A stretch of DNA of 64,000 nt, taken from a bacterium. GTDB taxonomy: Bacteria > CLD3 > SB21. The stretch covers positions 80,340 through 144,339 of the forward strand of contig WBUR01000003.1 in NCBI GenBank assembly GCA_008933615.1, read 5' to 3'. This document shows positions 2,804-57,900 of the stretch, one piece after another. Made by a program: the position numbers and the translations under genes. The notes beneath the pieces are model-generated. The model searched no databases. It worked only from the letters and a program-made list of their open reading frames with translations, and was not told the origin of the DNA. How positions within the stretch are numbered: the first letter of the stretch is position 1; every line of letters starts with the position of its first letter.

Positions 2804-3184
2804 ATGGATAAGATGAAAAAACCGGTCACGACCATCGATGAATATATCGAGTCGTTCCCGATCGACGTGCAGGATATGCTGCAGACCTTACGCCGAACCA
2901 TAAAAAATTCCGCTCCAAAAGCAGTTGAAGCGATCAGTTATCAAATACCGACGTTCAAACTGCATGGCAATCTTGTTCACTTTGCCGCCTACAAACATCA
3001 TATCGGATTCTATCCCACCTCATCGCCCGTCAAAGTATTTGCCAAGGAACTTACTTCGTACAAGACCTCCAAAGGCGCGATACAGTTTCCCATCGGGGAA
3101 CCGTTGCCGCTGGCGCTGGTGCGGAAGATCGTGAGATTCAGGGTCAAAGAAAGTACGGAAAAGGCTAAGAGAAAAATTAAATAG
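2804..3184 (+). CDS. DUF1801 / YdhG-like domain protein
   Basis: 126-residue cytosolic protein of the DUF1801 (YdhG/YobT-like) fold. Typical features are TIDEYIESFP near the start, the ISYQIPTFK segment at about 45-53, the HHIGFYP segment near 70 and a basic C-terminus. The molecular function of the family is unknown. I start at the ATG at 2804 (MDKMKKPVTTIDEY) because the TTG 14 codons upstream only adds an uncharacteristic MTFASCRYF stretch. It stands alone after the TRAP operon with 65 bases between and is followed by repeat-rich non-coding DNA. Confidence 0.82.
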   Translation: MDKMKKPVTTIDEYIESFPIDVQDMLQTLRRTIKNSAPKAVEAISYQIPTFKLHGNLVHFAAYKHHIGFYPTSSPVKVFAKELTSYKTSKGAIQFPIGEPLPLALVRKIVRFRVKESTEKAKRKIK

Positions 3185-3217
3185 CGCCGCCATACCTCAG
3201 GCCGGATTTGTATTTTA

Positions 3218-4670
3218 CCGGCCTTGAAAAAAATGCCGAGGAAACTCGAGTTCACAGCCAAAGTTTTCTCAGCCAGAGGCTGATCCGCCTCCGGCGTGAT
3301 TTCCCGCTTTCTTTTCAAAAAGAAAGCGGATCCAAGTGTTTACTTTATAGCGATGTCGCCATCATAAAAACACCTGTGAAGTCTTTTCTTTCTTTTGCTG
3401 GCTCAAAAGAAAGAAACAAAGAAAAGAGCCAAGGCTATGGAAAAACGCCGGAACTGGAGTTCGCTAATGTTGGTGGCAGAAAACAGTTCTTAACATTTTA
3501 GAGTTGCCATAAGTTTACAATCTGTTCCACGTTTTCTGCTGAAATGATATCGCGAACTCCGGTTCAGTCTCGGCGTTTTTCCAAGGCCTGAAAATCAGAA
3601 TACAAAAAACACATTTGCCTTGTACTAGGTATTTGCATCCCCGGCCTTGAAAAAAATGCCGAGGAAACCCGCGTTCGCAGTATTATAAATGCGAAAAACG
3701 GCTTTCATAAACGTTCTGATTTCGTGTATCGTTAAGATAGAGAATCGTTTTTCGCAACCATTCTGCGAACGAGGGTTTAGGCATTTTTTTCACAGCCGCT
3801 ATTTTCTTTGCTGCTTTCTTTTGTGCCAAAAGAAAGCAGATCCAGGTGTTTACTTTATCGCGAGGCTGTCATCATACGAAAACCCTGTGAAGCCTTTCTT
3901 TCTTTTGCTCGTCCATAAAGAAGAGAATCCAATATTCATTTTCTAAGCGAGGTGTTACTTTCTTTGCCTTGATGCAAAGAAAGTAACCAAAGAAAAATCA
4001 AGGCTGGCGAAAAAACGCCTGAACCTCTGCTCGCTCCGCTACGCCGAAAAAACTCACAGCCTGAGGCTGCTCAGACAGTTTTCGGCGCTTTACGCGTCGC
4101 TCGCTTCGGTTCTTAACGGCGTTTTTCCGCAGGCCGGAAAGAAAATCAAAGAACTACATCTAAAGTATAATTTGTCTTTGTATTCTCCGGCCTTGAAAAA
4201 AATGCCGAGGAAACCCGAGTTCGCAGCATTAATTTTTTTCACAGCCGCTATTTTCTCAGCCGAAGGCTGATCCGCCTTTGGCGTGATTTGCTGCTTTCTT
4301 TTGGCACAAAAGAAAGCAGATCCAAGTGTTTACTTTAAGTAATAGCTCTAATAATATGAAAATGCCGTGAAGCCTTTCTTTCTTTTGCTCGTGCAAAAGA
4401 AAGAAACAAAGAAAAGCACGAAGGCTATGGAAAAACGCCGGAACCGGAGTTCGCTAATGTTGGTGGCAGAAAACAGTTCTTAACATTTTAAAGTTGTCAT
4501 ACGCTTACGATCTGTTCCACGTTTTCTGCTGAAATGATATCGCGAACTCCGGTTCAGTCTCGGCGTTTTTCCAAGGCCTGAAAATCAGAATACAAAAAAC
4601 ACATTTGCCTTGTACTAGGTATTTGCATCCCCGGCCTTGAAAAAAATGCCGAGGAAACCCGAGTTCGCGC
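3218..4670. repeat. Mosaic of three long intergenic repeat units plus a partial fourth
   Basis: No gene is convincing in the 1.6 kb between 3185 and 4845. The segment is three head-to-tail units, each opening with the same CCGGCCTTGAAAAAAATGCC box: 3218-3640, 3641-4186, 4187-4630, and a stub 4631-4670. Units 1 and 3 are nearly identical over 3431-3670 versus 4421-4660 with no indel (offset 990). Unit 2 has a different middle. Every unit contains nested inverted repeats: CTTTCTTTT/AAAAGAAAG hairpins, and an outer pair such as GGAAAAACGCC/GGCGTTTTTCC. A 6-7 bp stem differs in sequence in each unit but stays complementary: 3399-3404 with 3426-3431, 3967-3973 with 3997-4003, 4389-4394 with 4416-4421. 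Short open frames here are not conserved between units. Confidence 0.85.
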
Positions 4671-4674
4671 TTTA

Positions 4675-4725
4675 ACCCCACCCTATCTCCCTCCCCTTGC
4701 TAAGGGGAGGGAGATAGGGTGGGGT
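4675..4725. repeat. Perfect 24-bp inverted repeat with 3-base loop
   Basis: Arms 4675-4698 and 4702-4725 are exact reverse complements around a GCT loop. The C/G-rich arms with a CTTGCTAAG turn resemble the shorter CCGCCTTGCCAAGGCGG palindromes elsewhere in this window, so this is probably another member of that family of intergenic palindromes. There is no T-run on either side, so it does not look like a simple intrinsic terminator. Confidence 0.85.
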
Positions 4726-4771
4726 CTTTCCCGCAGGCCGAAAACCGCTCTATACTTCGCGCAAATAATTG

Positions 4772-4846
4772 CTTGAAAATGGCATGCCCGCGCTGTACAT
4801 TATCCCCGTCTATTAGCCGTTCTTTTCTATCGTAGGAATATTATCA
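4772..4846 (+). repeat. Upstream-region repeat shared by two neighbouring genes (copy 1)
   Basis: The leader of the M28 peptidase gene (TGTACATTATCCCCG at 4794 through TTCTTTTCTATCGTAGGAA to the start) recurs before the next gene at about 5780-5854. Both copies end at the start codon with a GTAGGAA ribosome-binding site. It probably contains a shared promoter and leader and is one end of a duplicated cassette frame. Confidence 0.75.
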
Positions 4847-10258: not shown

Positions 10259-10342
10259 AACCGCCCCCTGTCTCCCCCGCCTTGCCAAGGCGGGGGCGCG
10301 TACTAATTTAGTTTGTAAGATTTATTTTTGTGGGGGGCGGTT
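10259..10342. repeat. Palindromic intergenic element (family A, copy 1)
   Basis: 84-bp element with outer arms AACCGCCCCC / GGGGGCGGTT and an inner hairpin CCCCCGCCTTGCCAAGGCGG. It starts two bases after the stop of the C1 peptidase gene. The same architecture recurs at 40207, 40398, 40589, 40797 and 41401. No T-run follows the outer stem here. Confidence 0.85.
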
Positions 10343-36000: not shown

Positions 36001-39000
36001 GATATCGTTGCGCGACCCGTCGGGATCGTTGTATTGCGACGCGGGATCGCCGGCATTGATGCAGGGTGAACCGGATGCGAGCTGGAAATTTCCACCCGCC
36101 GCATTGATCTGAAGCGGATCGAGCGCGAGGTCGCCGGTTCCAGGCGTAGTAAAGGTGCCGGTATAATTGAAACTGTTGTTGAAATAATCGTTATACGATC
36201 CGACGCTCGGCCCGGCGCTGTTGTTGAGTCCGAATCCGTTACCGCGGATGATATTGTTCTTTACGACGCTCGACGCGCCGCTGGAAAGGTACACGCCGTG
36301 CGTATTATTGTAGATCGTATTGTTGATGACCGAGACATTCGCTTCAACACGAATACCGTATCCGGAACTGTTTTTGACGTTCTTGATAACCGAATGCGTG
36401 ATGACCGCCGGCCCGAGTAAATGCAGACCCGTTCCCGCAACATTTGTTTTTCCGTCGAATACAAACCCGTCAACCTTGACGCCAAACGCATCGTACCACA
36501 TCGTGGAACTCACCGCTTCGATCACGGTCTGGTTTACCGCAGGAATTCTGGATGATTCGAGGAAATCTCCCCCGTATCCGCCACGCAAGACGGCGTAACC
36601 GGTCGTGATGATCCCTTCGGCGTAATTTCCTGCCGCAACTTTGATCGTATCCCCTAAAGCGTTTTGCATGGCTTTGGTGATCGTTCGGTACGGATTGTTC
36701 AAAGAGCCGTCGTTGTTGTCATTGCCGGAGGTAGCAACATACGTCACAGGATTGACGCCGGTTTTTGATGCCGCGGAGGTGCCGCCAAAATTACCGATAT
36801 TAATTCTGCCGCCGTTGGGAGCGGGTTCATAGCCAACCGGATCCGCCGGATTACCTGCATCGATGCAGGACGAACCGCCTTTGAGGCGGAAGTCGCCGCC
36901 AGCGGCATAAACGAATTTCGGATCGGCATTGATATCATTGGCGCCGGGAGAATTGAACGTGCCGTCGTAATTCAGAAAATCATTCCCGTAAACGCAGTTA
37001 TAATTTGCGATTGACGCCGAAAGATTATTATCAAGCCCGACGTCGTTCAGCATGATGATATTATTTTCGATTTTCGTAGTTCCTGCATTGGCCGACGCAT
37101 TGACCACGATCGAATAAAATATCACGCCGCCGCCGGCAAGCTGATTATTATAGATCGTGTTATTTTTGATTACCGCGCCCGCGCCGGAATTGACCACGAT
37201 GCCCTGATTGCCGCTGCCGAAATAATTAACGATCGTGCAATGCATGATGGTCGTGGTTCCGCCGGTGACGTTCACCGCTTTGGAAGTTCCTAACGATCCA
37301 TCGAAAACGATCCCGTCAAAAGTACAGCTTTGATTGTCCGTGACCTGCGGATTGGTCACCGCTTTCCAAATGGTCTGATAGGCATGAATATCCCTCTGCG
37401 ATTCGATAAATCCCGGCGCATATCCGCCGAGAACAACGAGTTGTTTACTCATCGTTCGGTTTTCCGTCCATGTTCCAGCGCCGATCTTGATCGTATCGCC
37501 GGCGAAGGCTTTATTCATCGCATCTCCGATATCGGCCAGCGGGAACTGCGCGCTGCCGTCGTTGGAATTGTTTCCGGTGGAGGATACGTGGAGGGATCTT
37601 ATTACGCTATTTCGCAGCACCGAAAACGAATTGCTGCCCTGATTTGTAGCCGCTAAGTCAGGCTTGCCGTCTCCATCGATGTCGGCAATGGCTACTCCGA
37701 CGGGAGAACCTCCCGTTGCGAAGTCTACTTTGGCGGCAAGACTAATAGTACCGGTAACGCTCGTGTTTTTAAGAATTGAAACCGTACTGCTGCCGTAGTT
37801 TGCCGTTGTTATATCAGCCTTACCGTCTCCGTCTATGTCACCCAAAGCTATTCCGGCGGGAACACTTCCGGTTGCGAAGTCCGCTTTAAGGGCAAGACTG
37901 ATAGAACCGGCCGTGCTCGTGTTTCTAAAAACTGAAACTGAGGAGCCGCTGTAGTTTGTAACAACCACATCGGGCTTGCCGTCTCCATCCACGTCACCTA
38001 TGGCGACGCCCAAGGGATAGCTTCCTGTTGCAAAATCTACTCTGGGGTCAAGACTGATCGTGCCGCTCGTGCCGGTGTTTCTGAAAACCGAAATTGTGTT
38101 GTTGCCGGCATTTGCATTAACTATGTCAGGCTTACCGTCGCCGTCCACATCACCTAGGGCAATCCCCCACGGACCGCTTCCTGTCATGGAATCTACTTTC
38201 GCGGCAAAACTGATAGTTCCATTTGTGCCTGTGTTTCGAAAGATTGAGATCATACCGCTGCTGAACTCACTTGCTACAACAAGATCGGCTTTACCGTCTC
38301 CATCCACATCGCCTATGGCAACAATATTCGGGCCGTTTCCCATTGGGAAATCTACTTTGGGGTCAAGAGTGATAGCGCCGCTTGTGCTGGTGTTTCTGAA
38401 AACTGATATTGTGGTGCCGCCATTGTTTGTAACCACCACATCAGGCTTACCGTCTCCATCTACGTCGCCAATGGCGACTCCGCGGGGAGAAACTCCCGTT
38501 GCAAAATCTACTTTGGCGGCAAAGCTAGCGGATCCGCCGGTGCCGGTATTTCTGAAGATCGAAAGCATGCTGCTGCCCTCGTTCGCCACGGCCACATCCG
38601 GTTTACTGTCTCCATCGATGTCACCTACAGCGATAGTATATGGGCCCGCTCCCGCCGTAAAGTCAACCTTTGAAGCAAAACTGGAAACATCTATGATTTG
38701 CGAACTTGAAAACGTAACAACAAACGGCTTGCTCGAATATGCCGTCAATCCGGTCGTTGTATCCGTCACGGTGATCGGCGCATACGTGGCGCCTGTAGGA
38801 ACAGTTACGGTTAGCTCCGTCGTGCTGGCATTCGTCACATTTGCTTTGACCGCGCCGAAATAGACGATGTTGTTTGTTGCTGTCGAATTGAAGTTGGTTC
38901 CGGTGATTGTGACGCTCGTGCCGATGGGGCCGGAGGTTGGGGTGAAGGAAGTGATGGATGGAGGCACGAAAGGTGTTGTGTACTTTGCAATGTAGTAGGA

Positions 39001-40179
39001 TTCCTTTCCACCTGCTGCCATAAAAGCACCACCCACATAGACATCACTCCCGCTAACGGCAATGGCATAGACGTGGTTATTTAGCCCGCTTCCAAGAGCC
39101 GACCAATTTGTTCCGTTCCATTTGGCAATGTGATTTGCCAATACCCCCCCGGCAGTACTGAATTGCCCTCCAACAAACAAATCACTTCCATTGGCCGCCA
39201 TGGCGTAGGCTTGAATACTTAGTCCACTGCCCAAATCCGTCCAACTAGTTCCGTCCCATTTGGCAATACTTTTTGCTGATACGCCTCCGGCAGCGGTAAA
39301 ATTACCTCCCGCGTACACAGTAGTTCCACTGACTGAGATGGCGTAAACACCACTATTGATTCCTGTTCCCAGTGCTGACCAATTGGATCCGTCCCATTTG
39401 GCAATATTTTTTGCTGATACGCTGCCAGCTGTGTCTATGTTTCCTCCAACATATACATCACTTCCACTTACCGCTATTGCATCCGCTAACCCACCCGGTA
39501 ACCCGTTTCCGAGAGCCGACCAACTGCTGCCGTTCCACTTGGCGATATGGTTTGCGGATATGCCTCCCGCTATAGTAAACCAACCTCCAACATAAATATC
39601 ACTTCCGTTCGCCGTGATGGAAATGACATCACTATTTAACCCACTCCCAAGCGCGGACCAACTGCTGCCATTCCATTTCGCAACATAATTTGCCGGTGCG
39701 CCGCCTGCTGTCGTGAAATTTCCTCCCACATAAACATCACTGCTACTCACAGCGATGCCTTCAACGTCACCATTTAGTCCGCTTCCAAGAGCTGACCAAT
39801 TTGTTCCGTTCCATTTGGCAATGTGATTTGCCCACACGCCTCCGGCGGTATCGAAATAACCACCCACATACACATCACTCCCGCTAACTGCAATGGCCCT
39901 GACACTATTGTTCAGGCCATTAGCGAATGACGATCCAAATCCTGTCCAAGGATCATCAGGACTTGCCAAGAGCGATGCCGCCATCGAGAATACAGGCTCA
40001 CCGCTTGACCCATAAGACATGCGGTATCCCGCAGGATCGAAACTTCCTGACGTACCTTTCGCAATCGACCCATCAGGATTAAGAATCGAAGAAATGGGTT
40101 TTTGGTGACTCTGGTCAATCGTCTGAGCACTTAGTGCAGATTTTATGATGAGTAGTGTCAGCAGTATTACATTTTTCAT
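33043..40179 (-). CDS. Giant secreted mosaic protein with T9SS-type C-terminal domain
   Basis: 2378 residues from the ATG at 40177-40179, which has GGAG nine bases upstream and gives signal peptide MKNVILLTLLIIKSALSAQ. Domains in order (approximate): eight kelch-like repeats SGSDVYVGG...AKWNGxxWSALGSGL (about 60-395), an IPT/TIG domain (410-490), eight FG-GAP/VCBS repeats GDVDGDGKPDVVV (500-850), two right-handed beta-helix segments starting with SSTGNNSNDGS-type motifs (870-1330), fibronectin III (1335-1430), plant-type leucine-rich repeats LPPSIGNLTELDIL (1440-1640), an Ig-like domain (1660-1740), a beta region, and the sorting domain FVLQQNYPNPFNPETTIRFD to KKMLLVK. Probably exported by the type IX system and attached to or released from the surface, with an adhesion or binding role. 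Confidence 0.9.
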   Translation of the reverse strand: MKNVILLTLLIIKSALSAQTIDQSHQKPISSILNPDGSIAKGTSGSFDPAGYRMSYGSSGEPVFSMAASLLASPDDPWTGFGSSFANGLNNSVRAIAVSGSDVYVGGYFDTAGGVWANHIAKWNGTNWSALGSGLNGDVEGIAVSSSDVYVGGNFTTAGGAPANYVAKWNGSSWSALGSGLNSDVISITANGSDIYVGGWFTIAGGISANHIAKWNGSSWSALGNGLPGGLADAIAVSGSDVYVGGNIDTAGSVSAKNIAKWDGSNWSALGTGINSGVYAISVSGTTVYAGGNFTAAGGVSAKSIAKWDGTSWTDLGSGLSIQAYAMAANGSDLFVGGQFSTAGGVLANHIAKWNGTNWSALGSGLNNHVYAIAVSGSDVYVGGAFMAAGGKESYYIAKYTTPFVPPSITSFTPTSGPIGTSVTITGTNFNSTATNNIVYFGAVKANVTNASTTELTVTVPTGATYAPITVTDTTTGLTAYSSKPFVVTFSSSQIIDVSSFASKVDFTAGAGPYTIAVGDIDGDSKPDVAVANEGSSMLSIFRNTGTGGSASFAAKVDFATGVSPRGVAIGDVDGDGKPDVVVTNNGGTTISVFRNTSTSGAITLDPKVDFPMGNGPNIVAIGDVDGDGKADLVVASEFSSGMISIFRNTGTNGTISFAAKVDSMTGSGPWGIALGDVDGDGKPDIVNANAGNNTISVFRNTGTSGTISLDPRVDFATGSYPLGVAIGDVDGDGKPDVVVTNYSGSSVSVFRNTSTAGSISLALKADFATGSVPAGIALGDIDGDGKADITTANYGSSTVSILKNTSVTGTISLAAKVDFATGGSPVGVAIADIDGDGKPDLAATNQGSNSFSVLRNSVIRSLHVSSTGNNSNDGSAQFPLADIGDAMNKAFAGDTIKIGAGTWTENRTMSKQLVVLGGYAPGFIESQRDIHAYQTIWKAVTNPQVTDNQSCTFDGIVFDGSLGTSKAVNVTGGTTTIMHCTIVNYFGSGNQGIVVNSGAGAVIKNNTIYNNQLAGGGVIFYSIVVNASANAGTTKIENNIIMLNDVGLDNNLSASIANYNCVYGNDFLNYDGTFNSPGANDINADPKFVYAAGGDFRLKGGSSCIDAGNPADPVGYEPAPNGGRINIGNFGGTSAASKTGVNPVTYVATSGNDNNDGSLNNPYRTITKAMQNALGDTIKVAAGNYAEGIITTGYAVLRGGYGGDFLESSRIPAVNQTVIEAVSSTMWYDAFGVKVDGFVFDGKTNVAGTGLHLLGPAVITHSVIKNVKNSSGYGIRVEANVSVINNTIYNNTHGVYLSSGASSVVKNNIIRGNGFGLNNSAGPSVGSYNDYFNNSFNYTGTFTTPGTGDLALDPLQINAAGGNFQLASGSPCINAGDPASQYNDPDGSRNDIGAYRFQDFPPGVPTDLTLTPLINYRVFLKWRRSTDSDFLRYRIYSGTNGTVFNQVDSNVTVSDTTSLIGPLTPNGTYYFRVTALDNVLNESSPAAANVYFSLRMNDSLTLVDLYDSLGGNNWTNKTNWKTGNSLDTWYGVSINDDRVDHLVLTANNLVGRLPPSIGNLTELDILQAAGNFISGILPSSLGNLIAMGGALMLAGNQISGSIPPSLGNLTSLQELQLNNNQLSGTIPAEIFSMSGLQTLDLSRNSLNGGLPGSANLPNVDFLDLGSNQLSGAIPSWIGDLSSLTNLGLGTNQFSGALPSTIQNINGLQILNLSSNLLTDLPDLNPIGALNSVYVTSNKLTFEDIEPNIGAPSQTFNYSPQDSVGVQKDTSVNLNASLSFNVSVGGSNNQYQWYKDGTLINGATNSSYPIASAQASDDGQYICHITNTVATELTLYSRPFNLTVIVTPPSITVGSIQVSNANPAPGTNVVITVPVTGSSPTVKLFYGKPHQNPGDSITMSFNGSAFVATIFGASVTQDGLWYRIRAQNSGGISYYPSISGRQSIAVQISDLATIKNESAYPNGLQSDAYATIALSLNGNLSLTDYFGPQEFKDGGPSNWRAMSFDATSQSFSDVTALGSGNAYYFYHRSGANEDLFSSVTGPSAISTNIFNEWVLEPGWNLVPWAYSFTANISARDNAQIGRIWLRSGKSGWEESTQLKPYAGYMIYNKTAGDIVLGNVLSWTPAAGKAFADEMSWSVRFKAAAGEYRDNYNVIGVSDASTDAFDDLDERDPISVGEGVNIYFTSSAPEKTLAYDIRSSGNGHVWNMAVENSTKDEKTVLQWKIDQLPQEFSLILYDITHNKKIDALNIASGYEFHNGRPAQFRVFAGNSEWVAEKVQQMESELPRAFVLQQNYPNPFNPETTIRFDVAQSGNVKIKVYNMLGQEVTTLVDTYYETGKNYETKWNGKDRFGREAASGMYIYRMESGKISKVKKMLLVK

Positions 40180-40206
40180 GGAGATTCTCCGGATATATGT
40201 TGTTTC

Positions 40207-40289
40207 AACCGCCCCCTGTCTCCCCCGCCTTAGCAAGGCGGGGGCGCGTACTATTTTAGTTTACAGTAAACTTGAATGTGGGGGCGGTT
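40207..40289. repeat. Palindromic element family A, copy 2
   Basis: Outer arms AACCGCCCCC/GGGGGCGGTT and inner hairpin CCCCCGCCTTAGCAAGGCGG. On the plus strand it is followed by a T-run (GGTTTTTTTC). It lies 28 bases upstream of the giant gene start. Confidence 0.88.
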
Positions 40290-40397
40290 TTTTTCATACT
40301 ATCATAATCATTTTCATTCGGTACGATGCTATTTCAGAATTACTTCACTTCATGTTCATCTCTCATGGAGATTCTCCGGATATATTTTTTAGATTCC

Positions 40398-40480
40398 AAC
40401 CGCCCCCTGTCTCCCCCGCCTTAGCAAGGCGGGGGCGCGTACTATTTTAGTTTGCAGTAAACTTGAATGTGGGGGCGGTT
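40398..40480. repeat. Palindromic element family A, copy 3
   Basis: Same 83-bp structure as copy 2, differing by very few bases; part of the 191-bp tandem array. Confidence 0.88.
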
Positions 40481-40588
40481 TTTTTCATACTATCATAATC
40501 ATTTTCATTCGGTACGATGCTATTTCAGAATTACTTCACTTCATATTCACTTCTCATGGAGATCCTCCGGATATATTTTTTAGATTTC

Positions 40589-40671
40589 AACCGGCCCCTG
40601 TCTCCCCCGCCTTAGCAAGGCGGGGGCGCGTACTATTTTAGTTTGCAGTAAACTTGAATGTGGGGGCGGTT
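40589..40671. repeat. Palindromic element family A, copy 4
   Basis: Third tandem copy. One outer-arm base differs (AACCGGCCCC), giving a single mismatch in the outer stem; inner hairpin unchanged. Confidence 0.88.
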
Positions 40672-40796
40672 TTTTTCATACTATCATAATCATTTTCATT
40701 CGGTACGATGCTATTTCAGAATTACTTCACTTCATGTTCATCTCTCATGGAGATTCTCTGGATATTTTTTTTTGCTATAGGGTACCTACTTCACTC

Positions 40797-41400: not shown

Positions 41401-41482
41401 AACCGCCCCCTGTCTCCCCCGCCTTACGAAGGCGGGGGTCGTACAATCTGGAGGTTGTTGAAAAATTAATATTGGGGGCGGT
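41401..41482. repeat. Palindromic element family A, copy 5
   Basis: AACCGCCCCC at 41401 pairs with GGGGGCGGT ending at 41482; inner hairpin CCCCCGCCTTACGAAGGCGG. The middle segment differs from the tandem copies, so the stems are conserved more than the spacer. Fills the gap between the CsgG-like and DUF559 genes. Confidence 0.86.
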
Positions 41483-57851: not shown

Positions 57852-57900
57852 CTCTGGGCGGAATTTCCGCCCAGAGGCGGATCAGCCTCCGGCTGAGAAC
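57852..57900. repeat. Perfect palindrome with a fragment of the mosaic repeat
   Basis: CTCTGGGCGGAA (57852-57863) and TTCCGCCCAGAG (57865-57876) are exact reverse complements around one T. It runs into GAGGCGGATCAGCCTCCGGC and then CTGAGAA, which is the reverse complement of the AGAGGCTGATCCGCCTCCGG module seen in the mosaic repeats at about 3276 and in altered form at 4263. A stray piece of that repeat family between the transporter gene and the tRNA. Confidence 0.75.

Follow-up and report, generated by a model that had tools for sequence, protein, structure and literature searches.

A dispersed intergenic element with pseudoknotted ends in many bacterial phyla: comparison with REPINs and other bacterial repeats

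Among the described systems closest to the repeats studied here, REP families have GTAG/CGTC tags and RAYTs as their defining features (PMC3733652), and STAXI (RF01728) consists of repeated pseudoknots in bacterial DNA, proposed to be RNA or folded single-stranded DNA (PMC2864571). In addition, Bp1_684, which is RF02421, is among the Burkholderia sRNAs listed as tested by RT-PCR (PMC3521395). Here, we analyze an intergenic mosaic array in a 64,000-nucleotide stretch of bacterial DNA (contig WBUR01000003.1), called the window below. An E-value mode search of the array against Rfam 15 gave no match at the gathering score, and when 18 loci were searched at gathering thresholds, no family covered the pseudoknot described below and only RF02421 touched a flank; in particular, the covariance-model search placed the elements neither in STAXI nor in any other Rfam 15 family. 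None of the sequence strings tried turned up in 5.39 million papers of the open-access literature, so that an earlier description under another name, above all in a subscription paper, is possible. The family thus has no name that we could find in Rfam or in the open literature. We put at roughly one half the probability that the array is made up of copies of a dispersed non-coding element of many bacterial phyla, which most likely works like a REPIN.

The array and the fold of its half elements

The intergenic stretch 3185-4845 separates a DUF1801-like gene (+, ending at 3184) from an M28-peptidase-like gene (+, starting at 4846), both named by inspection of their translations only, and half elements in alternating orientation fill 3215-4670 of it as a mosaic array. 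The initial annotation had noticed long identical blocks between the units, and these are indeed present: a block of 294 nt at 96% identity (3385-3678/4375-4668), plus families of 106 nt and 48 nt. Each half element is an H-type pseudoknot followed by a hairpin of approximately 150 nt. Namely, a stem S1 of 12-14 bp encloses a variable 6-nt loop, to which a downstream tail is complementary, and this loop/tail stem (S2) is interleaved with S1, which makes each unit an H-type pseudoknot; both helices carry compensatory changes, and the connecting segments have lengths that fit such a fold (L1 2-3 nt, S2 5-6 bp, L3 8-9 nt). Minimum free energy folding recovers S1 and leaves a loop of 4-6 nt open, while whole units, pseudoknot and long imperfect hairpin together, fold at about -74 to -90 kcal/mol.

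The three short variable stems reported initially are exact: TGGCTC/GAGCCA at 3399-3404/3426-3431, CCTTGAT/ATCAAGG at 3967-3973/3997-4003 and TCGTGC/GCACGA at 4389-4394/4416-4421. They had been read as simple hairpins closing a nearly constant loop. The constant sequence exists; since S1 encloses the variable 5' strand, what was taken for the loop is mostly the 3' strand of S1, and the fold is a pseudoknot. The shared arms were likewise correctly placed, with GGAAAAACGCC/GGCGTTTTTCC forming the base of the long hairpin and CTTTCTTTT/AAAAGAAAG forming S1, a second stem beside the variable one.

In the first forward pseudoknot (F1, 3384-3431, + strand; positions recomputed, S1 folded with RNAfold), the 12-bp S1 TTTCTTTCTTTT/AAAAGAAAGAAA (3385-3396/3405-3416) surrounds GC-TGGCTC, in which GC is L1 and TGGCTC is complementary to GAGCCA, 9 nt past S1 across L3 (3417-3425). 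The long imperfect hairpin that follows (GGCTATGGAAAAACGCC ... GGCGTTTTTCCAAGGCC) was placed by folding at 3433-3588 (+), and the whole unit, 3384-3600, folds at -83.8 kcal/mol. The third forward pseudoknot (F3, 4375-4421, +) has the same layout, with S1 at 4375-4386/4395-4406 and a folded long hairpin at 4423-4578 (+). The second (F2, 3954-4003, +) is of the canonical cross-phylum form: S1 is GTTACTTTCTTTGC/GCAAAGAAAGTAAC (3954-3967/3974-3987), and the loop CTTGAT (3968-3973) pairs with ATCAAG 9 nt downstream of S1, beyond L3 (CAAAGAAAA, 3988-3996) and within the tail ATCAAGG (3997-4003). Repeat comparison and folding place its long hairpin at 4002-4135 (+), within which the search for the second motif described below located a tip motif ACTCA-(CAGCCTGAGGCTG)-CTCAGACA at 4046-4083 (+).

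The reverse half elements (all - strand) are R1 at 3219-3329, with an S1 hairpin at 3304-3329, an inserted small hairpin module at 3270-3289 and part of the long hairpin; R2 at 3642-3839, with the long hairpin at 3642-3798, L3 at 3802-3810 and the S1 hairpin at 3811-3839; R3 at 4188-4319, with the S1 hairpin at 4291-4319 and the module at 4257-4276; and R4, a truncated copy at 4632-4668 identified by repeat comparison. A broken forward copy of the S1 region lies at 3894-3925 (+). Neither this copy nor the S1 hairpins of R1, R2 and R3, none of which the initial annotation had pointed out, have a loop/tail stem; those of the reverse halves have short loops or none, hence no second stem. Across the genus of the window's own organism, too, copies without the second stem occur, and they lack the loop itself.

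Other repeats were seen in the array and elsewhere in the window. The small hairpin module, CAGCC-NNN-GGCTGATCCGCC-NNN-GGCG, sits inside L3 of the reverse halves and has a relative at 57858-57899; in a sister species (L406) it lies in L3 of a forward pseudoknot, with another hairpin in the loop. Directly 3' of the array, at 4675-4725, is an inverted repeat, ACCCCACCCTATCTCCCTCCCCTT, whose 24-bp arms match perfectly across a 3-nt spacer; the orthologous region of G002 has a similar sequence. A second repeat family (CCGCCCCCTGTCTCCCCCGCCTT...AAGGCGGGGGCG) forms three 191-bp tandem copies and is found in the window at 40203-40775, 10259-10315 and 41401-41457. Finally, 37644-39897 contains 156- and 138-bp repeats, possibly within the coding sequence of repeat-domain proteins.

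Covariation, distribution and placement

Pairing between loop and tail was kept at four or more of five positions in 115 of 144 distinct combinations, against 29.1 (sd 4.7) when tails were shuffled. Relatedness among copies inflates such counts, and the safest figures are therefore the number of distinct pair types and the test with one copy per loop, in which a loop was paired with its own tail in 63 of 85 cases compared with 16.6 in shuffled sets (sd 3.4, maximum 29 in 1000 shuffles). In a gap-free alignment of 61 copies, S2 had 81 cells changed on both sides (44.3 shuffled) and a covariation score of 0.460, as opposed to 0.179 shuffled and at most 0.162 when slid. S1 with its inner closing pair showed 13 double changes against 1.0, and the inner closing pair was standard in all 61 copies (GC 54, CG 4, AU 3). 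What is more, an S1 with one additional pair goes with a crossing loop that has one additional base (36/19 vs 2/29, p=6e-8). Because the 20-mer search described below fixed one strand of S1, support for this stem comes mainly from searches with the S1 pattern and with free positions, in the own genome and genus and in 369 genomes of one class; within the genus, both strands of the outer S1 vary together, as GTTA/TAAC, CCG/CGG, CTG/CAG, CCA/TGG, CAA/TTG, ATA/TAT and TTT/AAA. The covariation seen in three units, as of a folded single strand, thus finds support well outside those units, in S1 as well as in S2. The initial annotation had taken this as the trace of selection, which covariation by itself does not prove, because paired stems can likewise arise and persist through template switching in replication (PMC8794818).

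The elements are dispersed and numerous. The S1 pattern CTTTCTTTN{0,14}AAAGAAAG has 29 matches in the own genome (reversed control 0), 13 and 15 in two genomes of the genus and 3 and 6 in two others of the family; it has none in one family and two class relatives searched, and the reversed pattern has none anywhere. The exact 20-mer AAAGAAAGTAACCAAAGAAA occurs in at least 119 stretches. The matches listed come from Pseudomonadota, Bacteroidota, Negativicutes, Desulfuromonadales and Uhrbacteria, under record titles including Caballeronia, Lysobacter, Xanthomonas, Thiobacillus, Methylobacter, Mucilaginibacter, Segetibacter, Chitinophaga, Saprospiraceae, Selenomonas relatives, Desulfuromonadales, a Candidatus Uhrbacteria and others. 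Using blastn, the AAAGAAAGTAACCAAAGAAA element was also found on replicons of Ilyobacter (Fusobacteriota), Pasteurella, Variovorax and Chitinibacter. Organism names follow the deposited records, many of which are metagenome-assembled genomes; isolates alone span Pseudomonadota, Bacteroidota and Fusobacteriota. Among the matches listed, CTTTCTTT stands at most 24 nt upstream of AAAGAAAGTAACCAAAGAAA in 75 of 85 distinct copies, though the search did not require it, and the few of the at least 119 stretches without this 5' arm are probably chance matches or remnants. Single genomes carry up to 92 copies, and reversed-pattern matches were zero in all 31 genomes tested. The 20-mer is present in 43 IMG/VR stretches (putatively viral); a search of 50,697 phage records for a phage origin gave no match, and neither did E. 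coli.

In unrelated hosts, 45 elements consist of inverted pseudoknot pairs some 350-680 nt apart (355-677), for example in Caballeronia (L057/L059), Thiobacillus (L097/L099), Ilyobacter (L408), Pasteurella (L411) and Variovorax (L412), and the sequence between the paired pseudoknots is a long imperfect palindrome. Of 126 copies, 25 carry a second motif, AACTC-(stem)-TCRRACA, whose closing stem is variable, at 37-131 nt 3' of the core, whereas none of 89 distant controls does; in 36 distinct tips the outer pairing is well above shuffled at most positions. Selenomonadales (L312-L331) have a compact form of about 135 nt, in which two additional hairpins change in paired fashion. In a Selenomonas-related genome (L344, L348, L350), a different repeat (GTGTCCCACCTCGTTCAGATACG...) begins inside the hairpin that follows the pseudoknot; it is perhaps an insertion element targeting these repeats. 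One Caballeronia genome has full-length 740-bp copies on several contigs, with 81-88% identity. Separately, in L244 the Caballeronia outer flank module (the RF02421-like part) is repeated four times in tandem at 1280-1803, with a spacing of 134 bp.

The elements sit at the 3' ends of genes and avoid promoters. Namely, for 35 single elements in three genomes, placed by means of 5-kb regions and a codon model, the upstream and downstream genes run on the element's strand in 16 cases, converge in 12, form an antisense tandem in 7 and diverge in none, and the upstream gene lies on the element's strand in 28 of the 35. The suggestion of a modular, perhaps mobile, non-coding element is backed by the mosaic arrangement, the dispersal and the copy number. 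As for empty sites in relatives, the window array differs from the orthologous array in two sister species, and the place of locus L015 holds unrelated intergenic sequence and no element in one sister species; a clean empty site with a restored target was found for neither in this comparison, as the intergenic sequence has been replaced between sister species and no insertion boundary is seen, so that movement is here an inference. At the orthologous L015 site in G001, a repeat resembling the CCGCCCCCTGTCTCCCCCGCCTT...AAGGCGGGGGCG family fills the space.

Competing explanations

Our best reading is that these are REPIN-like non-coding elements with pseudoknot ends, and not REPs by definition. 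A complete element consists of two halves, each a pseudoknot with its long imperfect hairpin, in inverted orientation. It would be non-autonomous mobile DNA, whose pseudoknotted ends may be recognised folded and single-stranded, with the mobilising enzyme presumably supplied in trans, and it would spread into gene 3' ends while being excluded from promoters. The 20-nt core is conserved across phyla within fast-changing, multi-copy intergenic DNA, which points to a conserved partner molecule. Counting against mobility, the sister copies in the window could stem from local duplication; no transposase gene could be linked to the elements, nor was any candidate enzyme beyond Y1 found. That candidate belongs to the classical picture of REP/BIME elements moved by RAYT (Y1) transposases, which would account for intergenic, palindromic, multi-copy sequences in inverted pairs and mosaic arrays, and Y1 genes are present in the own genome. 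However, PF01797 (Y1/RAYT) is without a match in 11 of the 31 genomes that carry elements, those with 92, 50 and 27 copies among them, some of these assemblies being incomplete, and no GTAG or CGTC tetranucleotide stands at the palindrome end, S1 being flanked instead by GTYAC/GTAAC-type ends with variable extensions. The classical picture is thus already contradicted and very improbable, and on the absence of PF01797 from high-copy genomes we reject a RAYT/Y1 transposase as the driver. A resemblance to IS608-like TTAC/TCAA cleavage was dropped as well, TTAC not being conserved (GTCAC, GTGAC). Equally improbable are bidirectional intrinsic transcription terminators: T-rich tracts do follow GC-containing hairpins on the complement of the pseudoknot strand, the elements lie at gene 3' ends, and 5 terminator-like sites were counted where 2.4 were expected, but this excess is small (sd 1.6), S1 is A/T-rich, none of the 5 sites is at the pseudoknot, and the cross-phylum conservation of the core would be left unexplained.

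A possible, if rather doubtful, alternative is a structured RNA acting in the 3' untranslated region, in mRNA end protection, termination or protein binding, with multiplication as a side effect. Its functional core could be the pseudoknot with its A-rich L3 or, on the other strand, UUUCUUU with a possible U.A-U/C.G-C triple. That strand reads tail'-UUUCUUUGG-UUACUUUCUUUG-loop'-CAAAGAAAGURAC, and its UUUCUUU, being mirror-symmetric, could on sequence grounds occupy the major groove of the UUUCUUU/AAAGAAA stem; such a triple helix, if formed, would explain why AAAGAAA is conserved twice. The placement at gene 3' ends, with none at divergent promoters, loop lengths suited to an H-type pseudoknot and the match of the Burkholderiaceae element flank to the sRNA family Bp1_684 all favor an RNA, as does the excess of G.T over A.C on the pseudoknot strand in single hairpins of the own genus (110 vs 67, counted in related copies). 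On the other hand, when both variable S1 positions were left free in 369 genomes of one class, the pair among the 31 places listed (7 genomes) was U-A in 6, G-C in 9 and C.A in 16, and never U.G or G.U; C.A on the pseudoknot strand means G.U on the opposite one, so that only there can it be read as wobble. Tandem gene pairs favor the pseudoknot strand weakly (16 vs 7). In paired elements, G.T and A.C mismatches are equal in number (337 vs 337), which also counts against the RNA, though the balance is expected of symmetric elements and therefore carries no strand information; S2 mismatches (7 G.T vs 15 A.C) do not differ significantly.

The paired changes could, in principle, also have been made in old repeats by template switching during DNA replication (quasipalindrome correction) and not by selection for a fold. 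In accord with this, the long arms of Caballeronia elements resemble each other more closely than they do other copies, as far as the outer flanks, and the paired elements have no excess of G.T over A.C. We consider this explanation unlikely, given that S2 bridges a 20-nt core that phyla share unchanged and that it interlocks with S1 in a pseudoknot, that S1 and S2 keep a fixed geometry with linked lengths, and that the core stays conserved while the stems change.

Returning to REPIN-like elements, a wider and more tentative view, plausible but short of an even chance, is that they belong to an unnamed superfamily, mobile or structured, with pseudoknot ends (possibly with the UUUCUUU/AAAGAAA triple helix), common to Fusobacteriota, Bacteroidota, Negativicutes and Pseudomonadota, whose ends would be read by a widely shared protein. 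If true, this would be the first mobile-element end recognised as a pseudoknot. A name for the family would fill a missing Rfam or repeat-database entry and would account for one class of repeats between genes and for spurious ORFs; recognition of bacterial mobile DNA as a pseudoknot becomes testable. An RNA role for the fold would make it a widespread 3'-end element without known function.

Relation to known systems

RF02421 (Bp1_684, Bp1_Cand684_SIPHT) matches, on the other strand, the outer flank of the Caballeronia element from the S1 5' arm; it covers neither the pseudoknot core nor the hairpin, and the window contains no match to it. MITEs and foldback elements resemble the present ones in being short, non-coding and dispersed, with long inverted repeats, and terminal inverted repeats are present here as the pseudoknot-bearing inverted ends of paired elements; unlike in MITEs, those ends are pseudoknots, and neither a transposase nor a target-site duplication was identified. 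With STAXI the elements share repeated bacterial pseudoknots for which RNA or folded single-stranded DNA comes into question, but STAXI is tandem, near DNA-processing genes and found in Enterobacteriales, whereas the elements described here are dispersed and inverted. They come closest to REP, BIME and REPIN sequences, being likewise multi-copy, extragenic and palindromic, often in inverted pairs or mosaic arrays, and avoiding promoters. They differ in doing without a GTAG/CGTC tag and, in several high-copy genomes, without a Y1 transposase, and most of all in what they have instead: pseudoknotted ends, a 20-nt core common to phyla and a length of hundreds of nucleotides.
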